64,000 nucleotides of DNA from Cardiobacterium hominis (GTDB lineage Bacteria; Pseudomonadota; Gammaproteobacteria; Cardiobacteriales; Cardiobacteriaceae). The notes under the pieces are model-generated. The model was given only the letters and a program-made list of their open reading frames with translations. It searched no databases and had not been told where the DNA came from. Made by a program: the position numbers and the translations under genes. Of the stretch, positions 2,552 through 64,000 are shown one piece after another; the stretch's first letter is position 1; each line of letters starts with the position of its first letter. The DNA lies in NCBI RefSeq assembly GCF_900637305.1, contig NZ_LR134365.1, forward strand, positions 2,224,501 through 2,288,500, read 5' to 3'.

Positions 2552-4375
2552 TTATTTTTTCGCTCGCTTGCGCTCGTTTTCCGTCAGGTATTTTTTGCGG
2601 ATACGGATGGATTTGGGCGTGACTTCGACCAGTTCGTCGTCGTCAATGAATTCCAGCGCCTGCTCCAGGGTGTTGCGAATCGGCGGGGTGAGGATGAGGT
2701 TTTCGTCACTGCCTGCGGCGCGGATGTTGGTCAGCTGTTTGGCTTTGAGCGGGTTGACGGTGAGGTCGTTGTCGCGGCTGTGGATGCCAATGACCATGCC
2801 TTCGTATACTTCGTCGCCGTGGCCGATAAAGAGGCGGCCGCGGTCTTGCAGGTTAAAGAGCGCGTAGGCGAGCGCCTTGCCGGTTGCCATCGAGACGAGA
2901 ACGCCGTTGTGCCGCGTTTTGCCGAGGCCGTCTTTTTTCGGGCCGTAGTGGTCGAAGGTCTGGAATTTGAGGCCACTGCCGGAGGTGAGCGTCATGAATT
3001 CAGTTTGGAAGCCGATGAGGCCGCGCGTCGGGATGAGGTATTCGAGGCGGATGCGGCCTTTGCCGTCCGGCACCATGTTGCGCAGTTCGCCTTTGCGCTC
3101 GCCCATGCGCTCCATCACCGCCCCTTGGTGTTGTTCGTCCAGATCCAGGACGACGAGTTCGTAGGGTTCATGCGTTTCGCCATCGACTTCTTTGTAGATG
3201 ACTTCGGGGCGCGAGACGCCCAGTTCGTAGCCTTCGCGCCGCATGGTTTCGATGAGGACAGAGAGGTGCAGTTCGCCGCGGCCGCTGACTTTGAATTTGT
3301 CCGGGTCGTCCATTTCTTCGACGCGCAACGCGACGTTGTGGATGAGTTCGCGGTCAAGGCGCTCCTTGATTTGGCGGCTGGTGACGTATTTGCCTTCGCG
3401 TCCGGCAAAGGGCGAGTTGTTTACCTGGAAGGTCATGCTCATCGTCGGCTCATCAACGGAGAGGCTTGGCAGCGCTTCGACGTGGTTCGGGTCGCAGAGG
3501 GTGTCGGAGATGTAGAGCGGGTCAATGCCGGTGAAGGAGATGATGTCGCCGGCGGCAGCGTTATCGACTTCGACTTTTTCCAGACCAAGGAATTTGAAGA
3601 TTTGCAGGACGCGACCGCTGCGCACCGCGCCGTCACGGCCGATGATTTTTACCGGGGTGTTGCTGCTGATGCTGCCGCGTTCGATACGGCCGATGCCGAT
3701 GACACCGGTGTAGCTGGAGTAGTCCAGCGAGGAGATTTGCATGCGGAAGGGCGCGTCGCGGTTCACACTCGGCGGCGGTACGTGCGCCACGATGGCTTCA
3801 AAGAGCGGGGTCATGTCGCCCGTGCGGATGTCGGGGTTGTCGCCGGCGTAGCCGTTCAGGCCGGAGGCGTAAACGATGGGGAAATCGAGCTGTTCGTCGG
3901 TGGCGCCGAGGCGGTCAAAGAGGTCAAAGGTTTCGTTCAGTACCCAGTCGGCACGCGCGCCGGGGCGGTCGATTTTGTTGATGACGACGATGGGATGCAG
4001 TCCCATGTCGAAGGCTTTTTGGGTGACGAAGCGGGTTTGTGGCATCGGGCCGTCCATGGCGTCCACCAGCAGGAGAACGCTGTCAACCATGGAGAGAACG
4101 CGCTCGACTTCGCCGCCGAAGTCGGCGTGTCCGGGGGTATCAACGATGTTGATTTGGTAGTCTTTCCAGCGGATGGCGGTGTTTTTCGCCATGATAGTGA
4201 TGCCGCGTTCGCGTTCGAGGTCCATGGAGTCCATCATGCGTTCGTACACTTCGGCGCGCTCGGCGAGGGTGTCGGATTGGCGGAAGAGTTGGTCAACCAG
4301 GGTGGTTTTGCCATGGTCTACGTGGGCGACGATGGCGATGTTGCGGATTTTTTTGACGTCGTGGATATCTGTCAC
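2552..4375 (-). CDS. typA: Ribosome-associated GTPase TypA/BipA
   Basis: A 607-residue translational GTPase of full family length. G1 is AHVDHGKTT (residues 17-25), G3 DTPGHAD (79-85) and G4 NKID (133-136); the EF-G-like domains and the BipA-specific C-terminal domain follow ([14 protein letters not shown] region). TypA binds the 70S ribosome near the A site, assists 50S assembly and is needed for growth at low temperature or stress. Single gene with its own terminator at 2511-2534; gatB lies upstream with an 87-bp gap. Nothing unusual seen. Confidence 0.97.
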
Positions 4376-57365: not shown

Positions 57366-60300
57366 CTAGAGGATGGTGACGGCATTGAGGATTTCTTCGG
57401 TGTTGAAGTAGTGGCCGTCGTGGGCGTGGAGGTGCACGGTGTTGCTGTAGGTTTGTGCGCCGTGCGTGGCTTTGATGGTCAGGTTTTGGGTCGCCGGATC
57501 AAAGTCAACGCTTTCAACTTGCCAGCCCGCACCGTGTTTGAGCACGATGCGGTCGCCTTCGCCGGGGTTGTAGTCGGTGATGGTGCTCGCGCCTTGCCAG
57601 TGCAGGGTGTCGCCGCCGTCCAGCAGGTAGGCGAAGGTGTCCGCGGCAGCGCCGCCTTCTTGCAGCGTCGTGCCGTGGGTGGCAACGAGGGTGTCATCGC
57701 CGCTGCCGCCGTGTTGTTCATGTGCGCCCTGGTGTTGGGTCGCGGCGAGCAGTTCACGGCTGTGTTCGCCGAGGTATTGCAAGAGTTCGGCGTTATCGAG
57801 GCTGACGAGTTTGGCGTAGGTCGCAGGATCTATGCCATCGCCGATGTGGAGGGACGCCGTGCTGTTATCGTCCTGTGCGTGCGCTATCGCGTGGTTTGCG
57901 TCATGCGCCGCGTTATCCGCGCCCGCAGCCGCGCCGTCGTCGTGCTGGAGTTGGGGCTCGTGGTGTTCGAGCGGGGCGCTGTTGGCGCTACCGTCGTGGA
58001 TAGTGGTGGCGAGGTTTTCTTTGCCGATGTTCGCGCCGTCCGCGTGGGTGATTTTGACGGTGTAGGTTTCGTCGCCTTCTTTTTTGCCGTCGGCGAGCGC
58101 TTCGACGGTGAAGTCAGCGCCGCTCTGGCCTTTGGCGATGGTGACGCGCTCGGTGCTGAGTTTGGCGTCGCTGTCGTCGGTCGTGCCGTGCTGGAGGGCG
58201 ATGTCCACGGTCACGTCTTTTTCCGGCATTTTCGCCAGCGTCAGGCCGTCCAGGAATTTTTTGAAGTCGCCTTCCATTTCGTGCCCCGGCCACGGGGTGT
58301 AGCTCTGGAATTTGCCGTTTTCGTCCACGCCCCAATTCGCCCAGGTCATCATGTAGGCGAGTTGTGAGGCGGCGTCGCTGCCTTTGATGGCGCCCAGCAG
58401 TTCGCTGAAGAATTGGGTGTTTTCGTTGCCTGCTGGCTGGATGACGCGGTCGTTGTTGAGGCCAAATTCGGTGAATGCCGCCACTTTGCCGTGTTCGCCC
58501 GCCAGTTTCGTGACCATTTCGAGGTCGCGCACGGTCTGGCTGCGCCATGCGGCGTCGCTCTGCCGCGCCTGCGGTTCGCTTTGGTAGGCGTCGTAGCCGA
58601 AGATGTCCACGTAGTTGTCGCCGGGGTAGGCTTCGAGGTATTTGGCTTTGTCGCCGCCCAGGCTGCCGTTGGGCGAGTAGGCGTAGAGGAGGTTATCGAC
58701 GCCTTTGTCTTCGAGGTATTTGTGGATGTGTTGCCAAAGTGCCTTGTAGTCGTCGGCGCTCATGTGGCCTTTGCCCCACCAGAACCAGTCGCCGGTGTTT
58801 TCGTGCAGCGGACGGAAGATGACCGGCACTTTGCTGCCGTCGGCGCGCACCGCGTTGTTGGCGGCGGTGGCGACGGTATCAAGCCAGTCGTGCAGTTTGC
58901 TTTGCAGGTCGCCGCTGATGAGGCGCTGTGCTTCGACTTTGCTGGTGTCAAAGGCGCTGCCGCCCGTCACCGGGTTTTTCAGGTGCGAGGAGAGGGTGAC
59001 GGTCGCGCCGAGGGAGTCGGCTTCTATGAAGGCTTTGGCCAGCGCTTTGCCGTTTTCTTCCGGCGTTTTACCGTGTTCGGCCGGTTCTTCGTCGGAATCA
59101 AAGCCGAAGACGGCAGGGTATTTGCCGCTCATGGCGGCGACGTCGGATTTGCGGCCGTAGCCGTCGTTGGCGCTGTCGCCGCGCGCGCTTTCGTCAATGG
59201 CGTGTTGTTGGCCAAAGAGGATTTGTTTGTGCGCGGCGAGGTCTTTCAGTTGTTGTAGCAATGCCGCCGCGCCCGTTGTTTTGCCGACGGGCGAGAGGTC
59301 AAGCTCGACGCGGTAATGCGCTGTGCTTCCTTCACTGACTGCGCTCGCGCCGGTGAGGTTGGCGGTGAGGTTGGCAACCGGCGGGGTCGTACCGTCGGTG
59401 ACCGGCGCGGTCGGCGCGCTGATGACGTGGTTTTCTTCGTGCCCGGCGTGGTCTTTGTAGTACGCCTGCACAGTGATTTTGTGGCCGATGTCGGCTGCTT
59501 GCAGGGTGTAGGTTTTGCCTTCTGCGCCGCTAATCAGCGTGCCGTCGCGCAGCCAGGTGTATTGCACGCGGTCAGGGACGCCGTCGGCATCGTTGACGTT
59601 CGCGGTGAGGGTCGCCCCCACTTTTGCCTCGCCGTCGAGGGCGACGCTGCCGGGGTGGTTGTCGCCTGCCGCGACGGGGCTGAGGACGCTTTCGCCGCGG
59701 CCGCTGTTGTCGGTGTAGTTCGCGCGCACGGTGACTTCTTTGTCGCCATCCTTCAGGGTGTAGCTTTGTCCGGTCGCGCCCGCGATGGGTTGTCCGGCGC
59801 TGTACCATTGGTAGGTAATGGTTCCGGCGGCAATGCCGTCTTCATCATGAACTTCGGCGGTGAAGGTGTTGCCATTTGGTTTGAGCGTGATGTGGCCGAG
59901 GTGGTTCGCCGTGCCTTCGATGGTCGCCTTGCCGCTGAGGTCAATGTCGTCGGCGAGCACGCGCGCGTCTTCGCTGTAGATGCCGATGCGGCCGTTGCCG
60001 TTGTAGGGCTGGTCGTCGTCGGTAACGGTGGCAATCACTTTGCCGTTGATTTTGACTTCGATGGTGCCGCCCTGTTTGCTGATGGTGAACTGTTTGCTGT
60101 CGGCAAGCGGCCAGCCTTCGCTACCGGTGGCAAGGAAGCGCTGTCCGCCGGCGTAGGCGGGGTCGCGTTTGCCCAGCTCCCAGCCGTTGGCGCGCGGCAC
60201 GAAGTAGTAGAAGTGGTCGTTGTCGGTGTAGTTCCAGACGAGCCAGCCGGTTTCCCAGGCGTTCGGGGTCGCGCCTTGGCGCAGTTGTTCCGGGGTGGAA

Positions 60301-63300
60301 ATGGTGCCGCTGAAGGTGAATTCGTCGCCATGCTGCGGGCCGATGACTTCGGTGGATGAGGTTGCCGTTTGTCCGCTTTGTGCTTTTGGCTTCAGCTCCA
60401 GCGCGTTGTTGCCGCCGCCGTTATCGACGATTTTCACGTGGCCGTAGCCGCTCTGCACCACGTTCCACTGTCCGAAGGTCGTACCTTGCGGGTATTCGCT
60501 GCCGGCCGGGTAGGCGGAGAAGTCGTCGTGGAAGTTGCCGGTCGGCGGGGTCGCGTCTTTTGGCACTTCGCTCTGTGCGCTCACCGGGCTTTCGTTGTGC
60601 TGCGCCTTGTCTTGATAGAACGCCTGCACGCTGATTTTGTGCCCGGCGTCGTCGGCGGTGAGCTGGTAACGCTCGCCCGTGCCGCCGCTGATCGGCTGGC
60701 CGTCGCGCAGCCACTGGTACTGCACGTCTTTCGGTACGCCATCTTCGTCGGCAACCGCGGCGGTGAGGGTTTCGCCCACTTTCAGCGTGCCGTTGATGCT
60801 GACCGTACCCGCGTGGTTCTGCTGCGGTTGCGCCTGTTTGGCGACGACCGCGTCGGTCTCGCTGCTGGTCGGTGCTTCGTCATGCGCAGCGTTGTCTTGG
60901 TAGGTCGCGCGTACGCTGATTTTGTGGCCGACGTCATCGCCGCGCAGTACGTAGGTTTTTTGGTGCGCGCCGTCAATCGGCTTGCCGTCGCGCAGCCATT
61001 GGTAATGCACGCCGTTCGGGACGCCGTCTTCGTCGGCAACGGTTGCGGTAAGCGAGGTGTCTTCTTTTGCCTCGCCGCTGATGGTGACTGTGCCGGCGTG
61101 GTTGGCGGGCGGCGCGCTGCCTTCGTCGTGAATGGTGGTGGTGACGCTGTCTTTGCCCGCCTCTATCTGCCCGCCCTGCGCCTTGCTGATGCGCACGGTG
61201 TAGTGCTCGTCGCCCTCTTGTTTGCCATCGGCGATGGCATCGACGGTGAAGGTTGCGCTGTTCTGCCCTTTCGGGATGGTGACGCGCTGCGTGGTGGTTT
61301 TCACGTCGCCGTCGTCGGTGCTGCCGTGTTCGATGGTGACGTCCACGCTGATATCGCGCTCGGCGTTGCGCGTCATCGTCATCTGTTTGACGAATTCGCG
61401 GAAATTGTCCGCCATTTCATGCCCCGGCCACGGGGTGAAAGCGGAGAACACCGGACTGCCGCCGAAGTTCGCCCAGGTCATCATATAGGCGACTTTCGCC
61501 GCATCCGGATTGGCCTTGATCGCTTCCAGCACATCGGTGTACCAGGTGAGATCCTTGTTGCCGTCGGGGTGGATGACCTTGTCGCCCTCACGGCCAAATT
61601 CGGCGACCGCCGCCAGCTTGCCGCGCGCTTCTGCCATGCGCGCCAGCATCGCCATGTCTTCCACCAGCTCGCCCGCCCATTTGTCCTTGGCAAGCAGGGC
61701 GTTGTTGGTGTCATAAGAATCCATGCTGAGCACATCGACCACGTCGTCGCCCGGATAGAGCAGCTTGTAGCGGCTTTCGTCGCCGTTGAAGTTGCCATTG
61801 GGCGCAAAGGCGGTGAGGAATTGACCGTCCAGCCCGTGTTCTTTCAGGTAATTGACGACGTAGCGGAACAACTCTTTGTAAGTCTCGGCGCCGCCGCGCT
61901 CGTAATACCACCACGCCCATTCGCCGTTCGCCTCATGCAGCGGGCGGAAAATGAAGGGGATTTTCGTACCGTCATCGCGCACCGCGTGCTTGCCGGTCTC
62001 GACAATCGCATCCAGCCAGCCGTTTAACTCCGCATTCTGGTCGCCGCCGGGCAGGAGGCGCTTCAAATCCACCTTGGTGCGGTCAGTCTCGCCGCCGGGC
62101 ATATCCCAGAAAGCGGACAGCTGCGCGATGCCGCCGACGCCATCAATCTTCTTGATGGCCTCGCCCATGCGCTTGCCGTTCTCCTCATTGGAAAGACCGC
62201 GCACCATCGGCGGCTCCATCATGCCCAGACCAATGATGGACGGATAATGCCCGGAGAGCGCATGCACATCCGAATGATGCCCCTCGCTGTTCTCCGGCGA
62301 AAACGCCACATCCAGCCCGCGCTGCTGGCCAAAGAGAATGCCCTTGTGGCTTTGCAGATTGTGCAAGAGCTCGGCGGCAGAATTTGCCTGCGGCAGTGCG
62401 CGGTGATCGAGGCTGACGGTATAGGTCGCCTTGCCGCCTTCCGTTACCTCCTTGGAACCGGTGAGGGTAATGCCCGGTTCATTCGGCTGCGGCGGGGTGT
62501 CTTCGCTGACCGCTGGCGTTTCGGCGCTGGTCGGGGATTCGTGGTTTTTCGCGTTGTCGTCGTAGGTCGCCTGCACCGTAATTTTCGCGCCCTTTTGTGC
62601 GGCGGTGAGGGTGAAGGTGCTGTTGGTGGCGCCGTCAATCGCCTTACCGTCGGCATACCACTGGTATTTGACGCCCGTGGCGGGTACGCCGTCTTCATCG
62701 CTAACGGTCGCTTTCAGCTCACTACCCACTTTTGCCTCGCCAGAAATAGTGACTTTGCCCGCGTGATTGGGCTGCGGCTGTGGATTGGGCGACGGGTTCG
62801 GATTGGGCGATGGGTTCGGGTTCGGCGACGGGTTCGGATTGGGCGATGGATTCGGGTTTGGATTGGGTGATGGATTGGGGTTCGGCGACGGATTCGGGTT
62901 TGGATTGGGTGAGGGGTTCGGCGACGGGTTCGGCGCGCTGCTGTCGGCAACGGCGTCGGTGGCGGCGCTGATCGGGGTTTCGTGGTTCTTGGCGTTGTCG
63001 TCGTAGGTCGCCTGCACCGTGATTTTTGCGCCCTTTTGTGCGGCGGTGAGGGTGAAGGTGCTGTTGGTGGCGCCGTCAATCGCCTTGCCGTCGGCAAACC
63101 ATTGGTATTTGACGCCTGTTGTTGGTACGCCGTCATCGTCGGTTACGGTCGCTTTCAGCTCACTGCCGACTTTCGCTTCACCGCTGATGCTCACTTTGCC
63201 TGCGTGATTGGGTTGCGGTTGCGGATTGGGTGAGGGGTTCGGCGACGGGTTCGGGTTGGGTGACGGGTTCGGGTTTGGATTGGGTGATGGGTTCGGATTC

Positions 63301-64000
63301 GGCGCGCTGTTGTCGGCGACGACAGCGGTAGCATCGCTGGTCGGTGTTTCGTGGTTCTTCGCGTTGTCGTCGTAGGTCGCCTGCACCGTGATTTTCGCGC
63401 CCTTCTGTGCGGTGGTGAGGGTGAAGGTGCTGTTGGTCGCGCCATCAATGGCTTTGCCATCGGTAAACCACTGGTATTTGACGCCCGTGGCGGGTACGCC
63501 GTCTTCATCGCTAACGGTCGCTTTCAGCTCACTACCCACTTTTGCCTCGCCAGAAATAGTGACTTTGCCCGCATGATTGGGTTGCGGTTGCGGATTGGGT
63601 GAGGGGTTCGGCGACGGGTTCGGGTTGGGTGACGGGTTCGGGTTTGGATTGGGTGATGGATTGGGGTTGGGTTGCGGGCTCGGCGACGGGTTCGGATTGG
63701 GCGATGGGTTCGGATTGGGCGATGGGTTCGGATTCGGCGCGCTGTTATCCGCGACCGCTGCGGTGGCGTCGCTGGTCGGCGATTCATGATTTTTCGCGTT
63801 GTCGTCGTAGGTCGCCTGCACCGTGATTTTCGCGCCCTTCTGCGCGGCGGTGAGGGTAAAGGTGCTGTTGGTCGCGCCGTCAATGGCTTTGCCGTCGGCA
63901 AACCATTGGTATTTGACGCCTGTAGCGGGTACGCCGTCTTCGTCGGTTACGGTCGCTTTCAGCTCACTGCCGACTTTCGCCTCGCCCGTAATGCTGACTT
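57366..64000 (-). CDS. Giant modular secreted protein with two GH26 mannanase-like domains (N-terminus outside window)
   Basis: At least 2,211 residues; the frame runs off the right edge, so the start and any signal are unseen. From N to C: Ig-like modules (about 85 residues each) joined by (PNPNPSPNPNP) linkers (64000-62480); GH26 domain 1 (about 62390-61370; FRPLHEANGEW with acid/base Glu and VAEFGREG with nucleophile Glu); Calx-beta-like module; two Ig-like modules; a beta-sandwich like a sugar-binding domain (about 60540-59930); Ig-like modules; GH26 domain 2 (about 59270-58250; FRPLHENTGDW, FTEFGLNND); a second Calx-beta-like module; and a His/Asp-rich linker. The C-terminus is of type I secretion type (GGSGDDTLVATHG, ITDYNPGEGDRIVL). 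Likely a surface or secreted mannan-degrading/adhesive protein. Confidence 0.88.
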   Translation of the reverse strand, partial: VSITGEAKVGSELKATVTDEDGVPATGVKYQWFADGKAIDGATNSTFTLTAAQKGAKITVQATYDDNAKNHESPTSDATAAVADNSAPNPNPSPNPNPSPNPNPSPSPQPNPNPSPNPNPNPSPNPNPSPNPSPNPQPQPNHAGKVTISGEAKVGSELKATVSDEDGVPATGVKYQWFTDGKAIDGATNSTFTLTTAQKGAKITVQATYDDNAKNHETPTSDATAVVADNSAPNPNPSPNPNPNPSPNPNPSPNPSPNPQPQPNHAGKVSISGEAKVGSELKATVTDDDGVPTTGVKYQWFADGKAIDGATNSTFTLTAAQKGAKITVQATYDDNAKNHETPISAATDAVADSSAPNPSPNPSPNPNPNPSPNPNPSPNPNPNPSPNPNPSPNPNPSPNPNPSPNPQPQPNHAGKVTISGEAKVGSELKATVSDEDGVPATGVKYQWYADGKAIDGATNSTFTLTAAQKGAKITVQATYDDNAKNHESPTSAETPAVSEDTPPQPNEPGITLTGSKEVTEGGKATYTVSLDHRALPQANSAAELLHNLQSHKGILFGQQRGLDVAFSPENSEGHHSDVHALSGHYPSIIGLGMMEPPMVRGLSNEENGKRMGEAIKKIDGVGGIAQLSAFWDMPGGETDRTKVDLKRLLPGGDQNAELNGWLDAIVETGKHAVRDDGTKIPFIFRPLHEANGEWAWWYYERGGAETYKELFRYVVNYLKEHGLDGQFLTAFAPNGNFNGDESRYKLLYPGDDVVDVLSMDSYDTNNALLAKDKWAGELVEDMAMLARMAEARGKLAAVAEFGREGDKVIHPDGNKDLTWYTDVLEAIKANPDAAKVAYMMTWANFGGSPVFSAFTPWPGHEMADNFREFVKQMTMTRNAERDISVDVTIEHGSTDDGDVKTTTQRVTIPKGQNSATFTVDAIADGKQEGDEHYTVRISKAQGGQIEAGKDSVTTTIHDEGSAPPANHAGTVTISGEAKEDTSLTATVADEDGVPNGVHYQWLRDGKPIDGAHQKTYVLRGDDVGHKISVRATYQDNAAHDEAPTSSETDAVVAKQAQPQQNHAGTVSINGTLKVGETLTAAVADEDGVPKDVQYQWLRDGQPISGGTGERYQLTADDAGHKISVQAFYQDKAQHNESPVSAQSEVPKDATPPTGNFHDDFSAYPAGSEYPQGTTFGQWNVVQSGYGHVKIVDNGGGNNALELKPKAQSGQTATSSTEVIGPQHGDEFTFSGTISTPEQLRQGATPNAWETGWLVWNYTDNDHFYYFVPRANGWELGKRDPAYAGGQRFLATGSEGWPLADSKQFTISKQGGTIEVKINGKVIATVTDDDQPYNGNGRIGIYSEDARVLADDIDLSGKATIEGTANHLGHITLKPNGNTFTAEVHDEDGIAAGTITYQWYSAGQPIAGATGQSYTLKDGDKEVTVRANYTDNSGRGESVLSPVAAGDNHPGSVALDGEAKVGATLTANVNDADGVPDRVQYTWLRDGTLISGAEGKTYTLQAADIGHKITVQAYYKDHAGHEENHVISAPTAPVTDGTTPPVANLTANLTGASAVSEGSTAHYRVELDLSPVGKTTGAAALLQQLKDLAAHKQILFGQQHAIDESARGDSANDGYGRKSDVAAMSGKYPAVFGFDSDEEPAEHGKTPEENGKALAKAFIEADSLGATVTLSSHLKNPVTGGSAFDTSKVEAQRLISGDLQSKLHDWLDTVATAANNAVRADGSKVPVIFRPLHENTGDWFWWGKGHMSADDYKALWQHIHKYLEDKGVDNLLYAYSPNGSLGGDKAKYLEAYPGDNYVDIFGYDAYQSEPQARQSDAAWRSQTVRDLEMVTKLAGEHGKVAAFTEFGLNNDRVIQPAGNENTQFFSELLGAIKGSDAASQLAYMMTWANWGVDENGKFQSYTPWPGHEMEGDFKKFLDGLTLAKMPEKDVTVDIALQHGTTDDSDAKLSTERVTIAKGQSGADFTVEALADGKKEGDETYTVKITHADGANIGKENLATTIHDGSANSAPLEHHEPQLQHDDGAAAGADNAAHDANHAIAHAQDDNSTASLHIGDGIDPATYAKLVSLDNAELLQYLGEHSRELLAATQHQGAHEQHGGSGDDTLVATHGTTLQEGGAAADTFAYLLDGGDTLHWQGASTITDYNPGEGDRIVLKHGAGWQVESVDFDPATQNLTIKATHGAQTYSNTVHLHAHDGHYFNTEEILNAVTIL
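62480..64000 (-). repeat. Near-identical Ig-like modules and Pro-Asn linkers
   Basis: Four modules begin to repeat at about 62500, 62945, 63310 and 63745, each opening with the same HAGKV(T/S)ISGEAKVGSE segment and closing QATYDDNAKNHE. Long stretches are the same at DNA level (for example GCCTGCACCGTGATTTTCGC). Linkers at about 62763-62940, 63212-63310 and 63580-63745 vary in length in units of PNPNPS-like codons. Copies continue beyond the window edge. Confidence 0.9.

Follow-up and report, generated by a model that had tools for sequence, protein, structure and literature searches.

Two GH26 glycoside hydrolase domains lie in one giant frame at the edge of the window, by which we mean the whole 64,000-nucleotide stretch of DNA analysed here (positions 2224501-2288500 of a genome consisting of one contig of 2,670,755 bases). 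The genome is that of a Cardiobacterium, a genus of mouth bacteria, which agrees with the host-associated gammaproteobacterium surmised in an earlier note on this DNA. The locus raises the question of how the two enzyme domains are mounted in the protein, and what they do there. We favor, at a probability of about 70%, the reading of an adhesin-like giant exported by the type I route, in which both GH26 domains sit in split LapA/Calx-beta-like hosts and which belongs to an 11-member family and probably leaves the cell through an LssB-type exporter.

Gene and domain organization

The part of the gene within the window (57366-63998, minus strand) is a single open frame of 2,210 codons. Its 5' end lies 835 bases past the window edge, and with upstream DNA added the full gene encodes 2,489 aa from an ATG start (G000:C1:2281866-2289335), in line with the export-type protein of more than 2,200 residues first proposed. 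Two matches to PF02156 (GH26) score 139.9 and 116.3 bits as single domains and 247.7 bits overall. Both exceed the curated cut-off of 20.2 bits, confirming the two domains that the earlier note had named, and no other Pfam family scores comparably in the protein.

The protein opens with a 150-aa N-terminal domain, linkers with four Ig-like repeats, and GH26 unit 1. A lectin-like sandwich flanked on each side by two Ig-like repeats separates this unit from GH26 unit 2, and an RTX-like C-terminal region closes the protein (Table 1). The Ig-like modules suggested earlier are borne out by Ig-type Pfam matches and by YQW motifs. In the first block these motifs occur at residues 307, 452, 575 and 722, with Pro/Asn-rich linkers at residues 368-419, 513-542 and 636-689, and the block also matches repeats of the NF040485 ZirU family. 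The lectin-like sandwich recurs as a near copy in the paralogues L050 and L051 as well as one of C. valvarum, and scores 18.1 bits against PF06439, under the cut-off of 26.8. The sugar-binding sandwich of the earlier note is accordingly weakly supported, and its sugar-binding function is putative.

Cysteine is absent from the protein and acidic residues are in excess, as is usual in type I substrates. On inspection, no N-terminal signal peptide was seen; the protein starts MNTITLKDTNGN. The type I secretion C-terminus that had been predicted is present as an RTX-like region, with sub-threshold matches to NF046115 (22.9 bits) and RTX_toxin (16.1 bits) and a score under the TIGR03661 cut-off, and several paralogues' termini have clear PF00353 repeats. 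The N-terminus gave no meaningful family match, and those of sister proteins resemble BapA_N (the BapA prefix) below the cut-off only. The results at both ends of the protein count against the favored reading.

Table 1. Features of the GH26 giant gene, in protein order after the first line. Profile positions refer to the 108-position host-domain profile; AF2, AlphaFold2.
Feature	Residues	Position in window	Strand	Basis
GH26 giant gene, window part	280-2489 of 2,489 aa	57366..64000	-	open frame and upstream DNA
4 Ig-like repeats with Pro/Asn-rich linkers	280-780	62496..63998	-	YQW motifs, Ig-type Pfam, NF040485
Unit 1 host N-arm (first strands, LapA/Calx-beta-like sandwich)	788-814	62394..62474	-	profile 3-27/108; AF2 strands 9-31, pLDDT ~90
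Unit 1 GH26	819-1152	61380..62381	-	PF02156; both Glu
Unit 1 host C-arm (remaining strands)	1158-1239	61119..61364	-	profile 21-107/108, 84.5 bits; AF2 strands 383-457
2 Ig-like repeats	1245-1430	60546..61103	-	
Lectin-like sandwich module	1435-1640	59916..60533	-	near copies in paralogues; PF06439 sub-threshold
2 Ig-like repeats	1643-1812	59400..59909	-	
Unit 2 host N-arm	1822-1848	59292..59372	-	profile 4-24/108; AF2 strands 9-32
Unit 2 GH26	1853-2196	58248..59279	-	PF02156; conserved positions intact
Unit 2 host C-arm	2205-2283	57987..58223	-	profile 21-106/108, 69.8 bits; AF2 strands 394-466
Spacer, GGSGDDTLVATHG RTX-like stretch, C-terminal export region, stop codon	2284-2489	57366..57986	-	sub-threshold matches

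A predicted split host for GH26

The host-domain profile was built from seven uninterrupted LapA/Calx-beta-like domains of sister proteins. In all four split units, namely units 1 and 2 and those of C. valvarum and a third Cardiobacterium genome, it breaks around GH26 at the same profile position. Spliced together without GH26, the arms score as a single domain (114.6 bits for unit 1 and 91.8 for unit 2), exceeding either arm alone. AlphaFold2 models of the catalytic domains, a check that the earlier note had proposed, were confident for units 1 and 2 (pLDDT 84.6 and 84.7; pTM 0.84 and 0.86, respectively), and in both the order is three N-terminal strands, the GH26 barrel and the remaining strands. 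The N-arm strands are modeled at pLDDT ~90, though they would hardly be able to fold alone. Together, profile and models indicate that the two arms are one beta-sandwich, with GH26 inserted between its second and third strands (B and C). Closure of the sandwich is a prediction from the profile and pLDDT.

Alternatively, GH26 could simply be flanked by two small domains that are independent of each other, with the apparent split a chance juxtaposition. The N-arm matches are indeed short, and that of unit 2 scores weakly alone (5.7 bits, E 0.016). However, the shared break point in four of four units, the gain on splicing and the modeled strands all speak against chance, which we regard as very improbable.

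In the paralogues, PF03160 (Calx-beta) reaches at best 24.4 bits, below its curated cut-off of 27, while PF20579 (LapA domain) passes its cut-off of 27 with 43.4 and 33.7 bits. By these scores, the host domain is closer to Pfam's LapA domain than to Calx-beta. The Calx-beta-like module of the earlier note is accordingly real, but it leans towards LapA and is interrupted by GH26, which that note missed. In Bifidobacterium, Bacillaceae and Bacteroidota, GH26 proteins gave no significant match to the host domain, and the same nesting was rejected for them.

Differences between the two GH26 units

The acid/base Glu is encoded at 61932-61934 in unit 1 and 58800-58802 in unit 2, and the nucleophile Glu at 61599-61601 and 58467-58469, exactly where both pairs had been placed beforehand. 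None is out of place, as in both units the two Glu align with the acid/base and nucleophile of solved mannanases. Among solved structures, the units come closest to true beta-mannanases, namely C. fimi Man26A (2bvt), Bacillus JAMB-750 Man26 (4yn5) and C. japonicus Man26A/C, with which they share the fold, both Glu and most conserved positions. In contrast to these enzymes, GH26 is here nested in a beta-sandwich, and unit 1 has an H, an N, a G and a T replaced.

Compared to the consensus of 15 relatives, unit 2 shows five deviations, none of them catalytic, and it looks like an intact beta-mannanase by sequence. Unit 1 has five deviations at positions invariant in all 15 relatives. One is conservative (V for Ile 1035), and four are non-conservative: F for H at 909, M for N at 912, S for G at 1037 and A for T at 1078, the last adjoining the nucleophile. 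Residue 909 corresponds to the S-x-H motif's His in solved mannanases, presumably His143 in C. japonicus Man26A, a residue of the -1 subsite. This His is kept in unit 2, and the C. valvarum copy keeps all residues changed in unit 1.

Between unit 1 and the C. valvarum copy, dN/dS is 0.20, a rough value given the high dS of 1.26. On this estimate, unit 1 is under purifying selection, and a decaying pseudogene is unsupported. Being under constraint, unit 1 is more likely retuned or a binding module than decaying, with its fold and both Glu kept and its subsite changed. Judged from these comparisons, the two GH26 units are non-equivalent.

The units are 41% identical. In the tree, the four Cardiobacterium GH26 domains cluster (support 80/79) beside Bifidobacterium, with unit 1 joined to C. 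valvarum (100/100) and unit 2 to the third Cardiobacterium species (99/98). Because the units pair with different species, the duplication predates these Cardiobacterium species, and a recent duplication was rejected on this pairing and the low identity. The duplicated mannanase units of the earlier note are therefore two GH26 domains as stated, but they are old paralogues, one with an altered subsite. The nearest sequence relatives of the domains are in Bifidobacterium, and on this small sample of sequences a Bifidobacterium-like donor is plausible. GH26 is not common in relatives: among the sampled members of the family and order it occurs in Cardiobacterium only, and 7 other genomes among the 369 searched in the class have it.

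Giant paralogues and a second insertion site

The N-terminal domain of the GH26 giant has 13 matches in the window's genome, 11 of them in frames of at least 1,800 aa (3.6% of the genome in total), and five in C. valvarum. Four family members, including a 672-aa remnant, stand in tandem at the window edge, and the neighbors of the GH26 giant are either unrelated genes or other giants. The giants carry Pfam passengers of diverse kinds: GH16, GH20, SLT transglycosylase, beta-helix/pectate-lyase-like, Spherulin4 (twice), an M10-like protease and a clan-A glycosidase. By eye, passenger motifs are kept in GH16 (ExDxxE), GH20 (DE), M10 (HExxHxxGxxH) and SLT. The giant, the GH26 domains and the Glu had been recognized from the outset; what escaped the earlier interpretation is the nesting in host domains and the family of 11 giants.

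Five further cases point to a second insertion site: two have alpha/beta-hydrolase-like passengers, two have Spherulin4, and the fifth comes from C. valvarum. Here the host profile stops short of the last strand, at position 90-96 of 108, and the passenger and then a last-strand-like stretch follow, e.g. SSVTTEIID (last strands assigned by eye). The Spherulin4 (spherulation-specific family 4) passengers, apparently placed before the host's last strand, are in L050:1140-10127 (+) and L052:8225-19084 (-). The clan-A glycosidase of L049 is seemingly nested in yet another repeat type, by eye only.

Export

An operon of an outer-membrane channel, an LssB-type ABC transporter and HlyD is present in the genome. 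The LssB-type ABC gene, at genome position 1251756, scores 897 bits (cut-off 693), HlyD 340 bits (cut-off 209), and OEP is over its cut-off. Genes of the hlyB/hlyD/tolC type, which the earlier note had suggested looking for upstream, are found in this form, but 1.03 Mb from the GH26 giant gene and not adjacent. Given that distance, the link between operon and giant is a putative one, against which the presence of other ABC exporters in this genome also counts; the GH26 giant is probably exported by the LssB-type operon. The LapG protease (PF06035) had no match in the window's genome, and LapA-type release by LapG was rejected. A peptidase-type bacteriocin ABC exporter (L051:11441-13672, +), assigned by eye, lies near one giant gene.

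Proposed mechanism and target

In the proposed mechanism, the GH26 giant would pass through the LssB-type ABC/HlyD/outer-membrane-channel operon and then be displayed on the cell, where we presume it is retained, or shed. With GH26 in the strand B-C loop of the split LapA/Calx-beta-like sandwich, the enzyme would project sideways from the stalk of Ig-like repeats. The 11 giants, with their common N-terminal domain, would present different enzymes on scaffolds of one kind. To go by its sequence, unit 2 most likely cleaves backbones of the beta-1,4-mannan type, and unit 1 would act in retuned form or bind. Candidate targets are mannans in the mouth, or the matrix and cell-wall glycans of neighboring microbes. 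The latter come into view through the GH16, GH20 and Spherulin4 passengers of sister proteins, and are a reasonable guess.

A foraging role had also been considered, in which a released type I-secreted mannanase would make food of dietary galacto- or glucomannan. That the closest solved relatives are mannanases, that GH26 fold neighbors act on beta-mannan and that the nearest sequences are from Bifidobacterium would all suit such a role. However, a search of the window's genome for GH130 and GH2 gave no match, so that use of released manno-oligosaccharides, or feeding on mannan, is not obvious, and the gene neighborhood lends it nothing. These results weaken the claim for dietary mannan, and we consider foraging quite unlikely. 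Unlikely, too, is that the passengers are mainly ligand-binding, lectin-like derivatives of old enzyme folds in which hydrolysis is secondary or lost. Split domains of RTX adhesins do carry binding domains (PMC12077191, PMC10865825), unit 1 lacks a His invariant in 15 relatives, and two alpha/beta-hydrolase-like passengers of L003, of weak homology, lack the GxSxG Ser. Against this, unit 2 is unchanged at every catalytic position, and the motifs of the GH16, GH20, M10 and SLT passengers are retained.

Relation to known systems

Type I-secreted glycanases are known, and rhizobial PlyA/ExsH and EglC are glycanases exported with RTX C-termini. They are far smaller than the GH26 giant, lack its giant repeat stalk and are not known to have a split host. 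The RTX region of one sister protein matches EglC.

In RTX adhesins, interrupted Ig-like domains project ligand-binding domains (PMC12077191, PMC10865825). AhLap of Aeromonas hydrophila, FrhA of Vibrio cholerae and MpIBP of Marinomonas primoryensis are likewise giant, type I-exported proteins with Ig-like repeats and an interrupted Ig-like domain bearing a projecting functional domain (PMC12077191, PMC10865825). The GH26 giant differs in projecting a glycoside hydrolase from a LapA/Calx-beta-like host, and LapA-type release finds no support, as LapG has no match. Our literature search returned no paper linking Cardiobacterium with giant adhesins, or a GH26 mannanase with type I secretion, and the titles and abstracts listed for split domains and for secreted glycoside hydrolases contained no precedent for an enzyme in the split position. 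Split domains and type I-secreted glycanases are already known; the novelty lies in split hosts that bear enzymes, repeatedly within a single genome and at two sites.

As a tentative extension, to which we give slightly less than even odds, Cardiobacterium may have made a general platform for enzyme display out of the split domains of RTX adhesins, with unrelated catalytic folds at two fixed loops of one sandwich type and a coat of tethered multi-enzyme arms on each cell. The literature takes split domains in giant adhesins to signal ligand-binding domains. Should the device also display enzymes, this rule needs widening, and the giant adhesin genes of oral and host-associated bacteria would be worth searching for hidden catalytic domains. 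The two sites would also point to natural insertion positions for enzyme display, and the family suggests that a small mouth bacterium devotes more than 3% of its genome to export-type, glycan-cutting proteins.

Further observations on the family

The next gene upstream of the GH26 giant (L003:8259-19244, -) encodes 3,662 aa with two alpha/beta-hydrolase-like passengers of weak homology, in which GNGGG and GYEGG stand at GxSxG and the nucleophile Ser is absent. A third passenger of ~320 aa (residues ~3085-3410) had no Pfam match. The 672-aa remnant (L004:9008-11026, -) combines the N- and C-terminal parts of the family with an Ig-like stretch, and has no recognizable passenger. M10/matrixin-like passengers occur in two Cardiobacterium species (L052:2728-8172, -, and L059:12616-18024, +), with HExxHxxGxxH seen, directly behind a complete host domain. 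In G005, a genome from another genus of the same taxonomic family, L061 and L062 comprise several large tandem genes whose N-terminal domain is related to that of the giants; two of them are 1,759-aa frames with identical ends as listed. Very long in-frame runs of Asn-Pro or Pro-Gln dipeptides are found in L003 and L047-L051. They are hexamer-type DNA repeats, whose length could vary with the frame kept.
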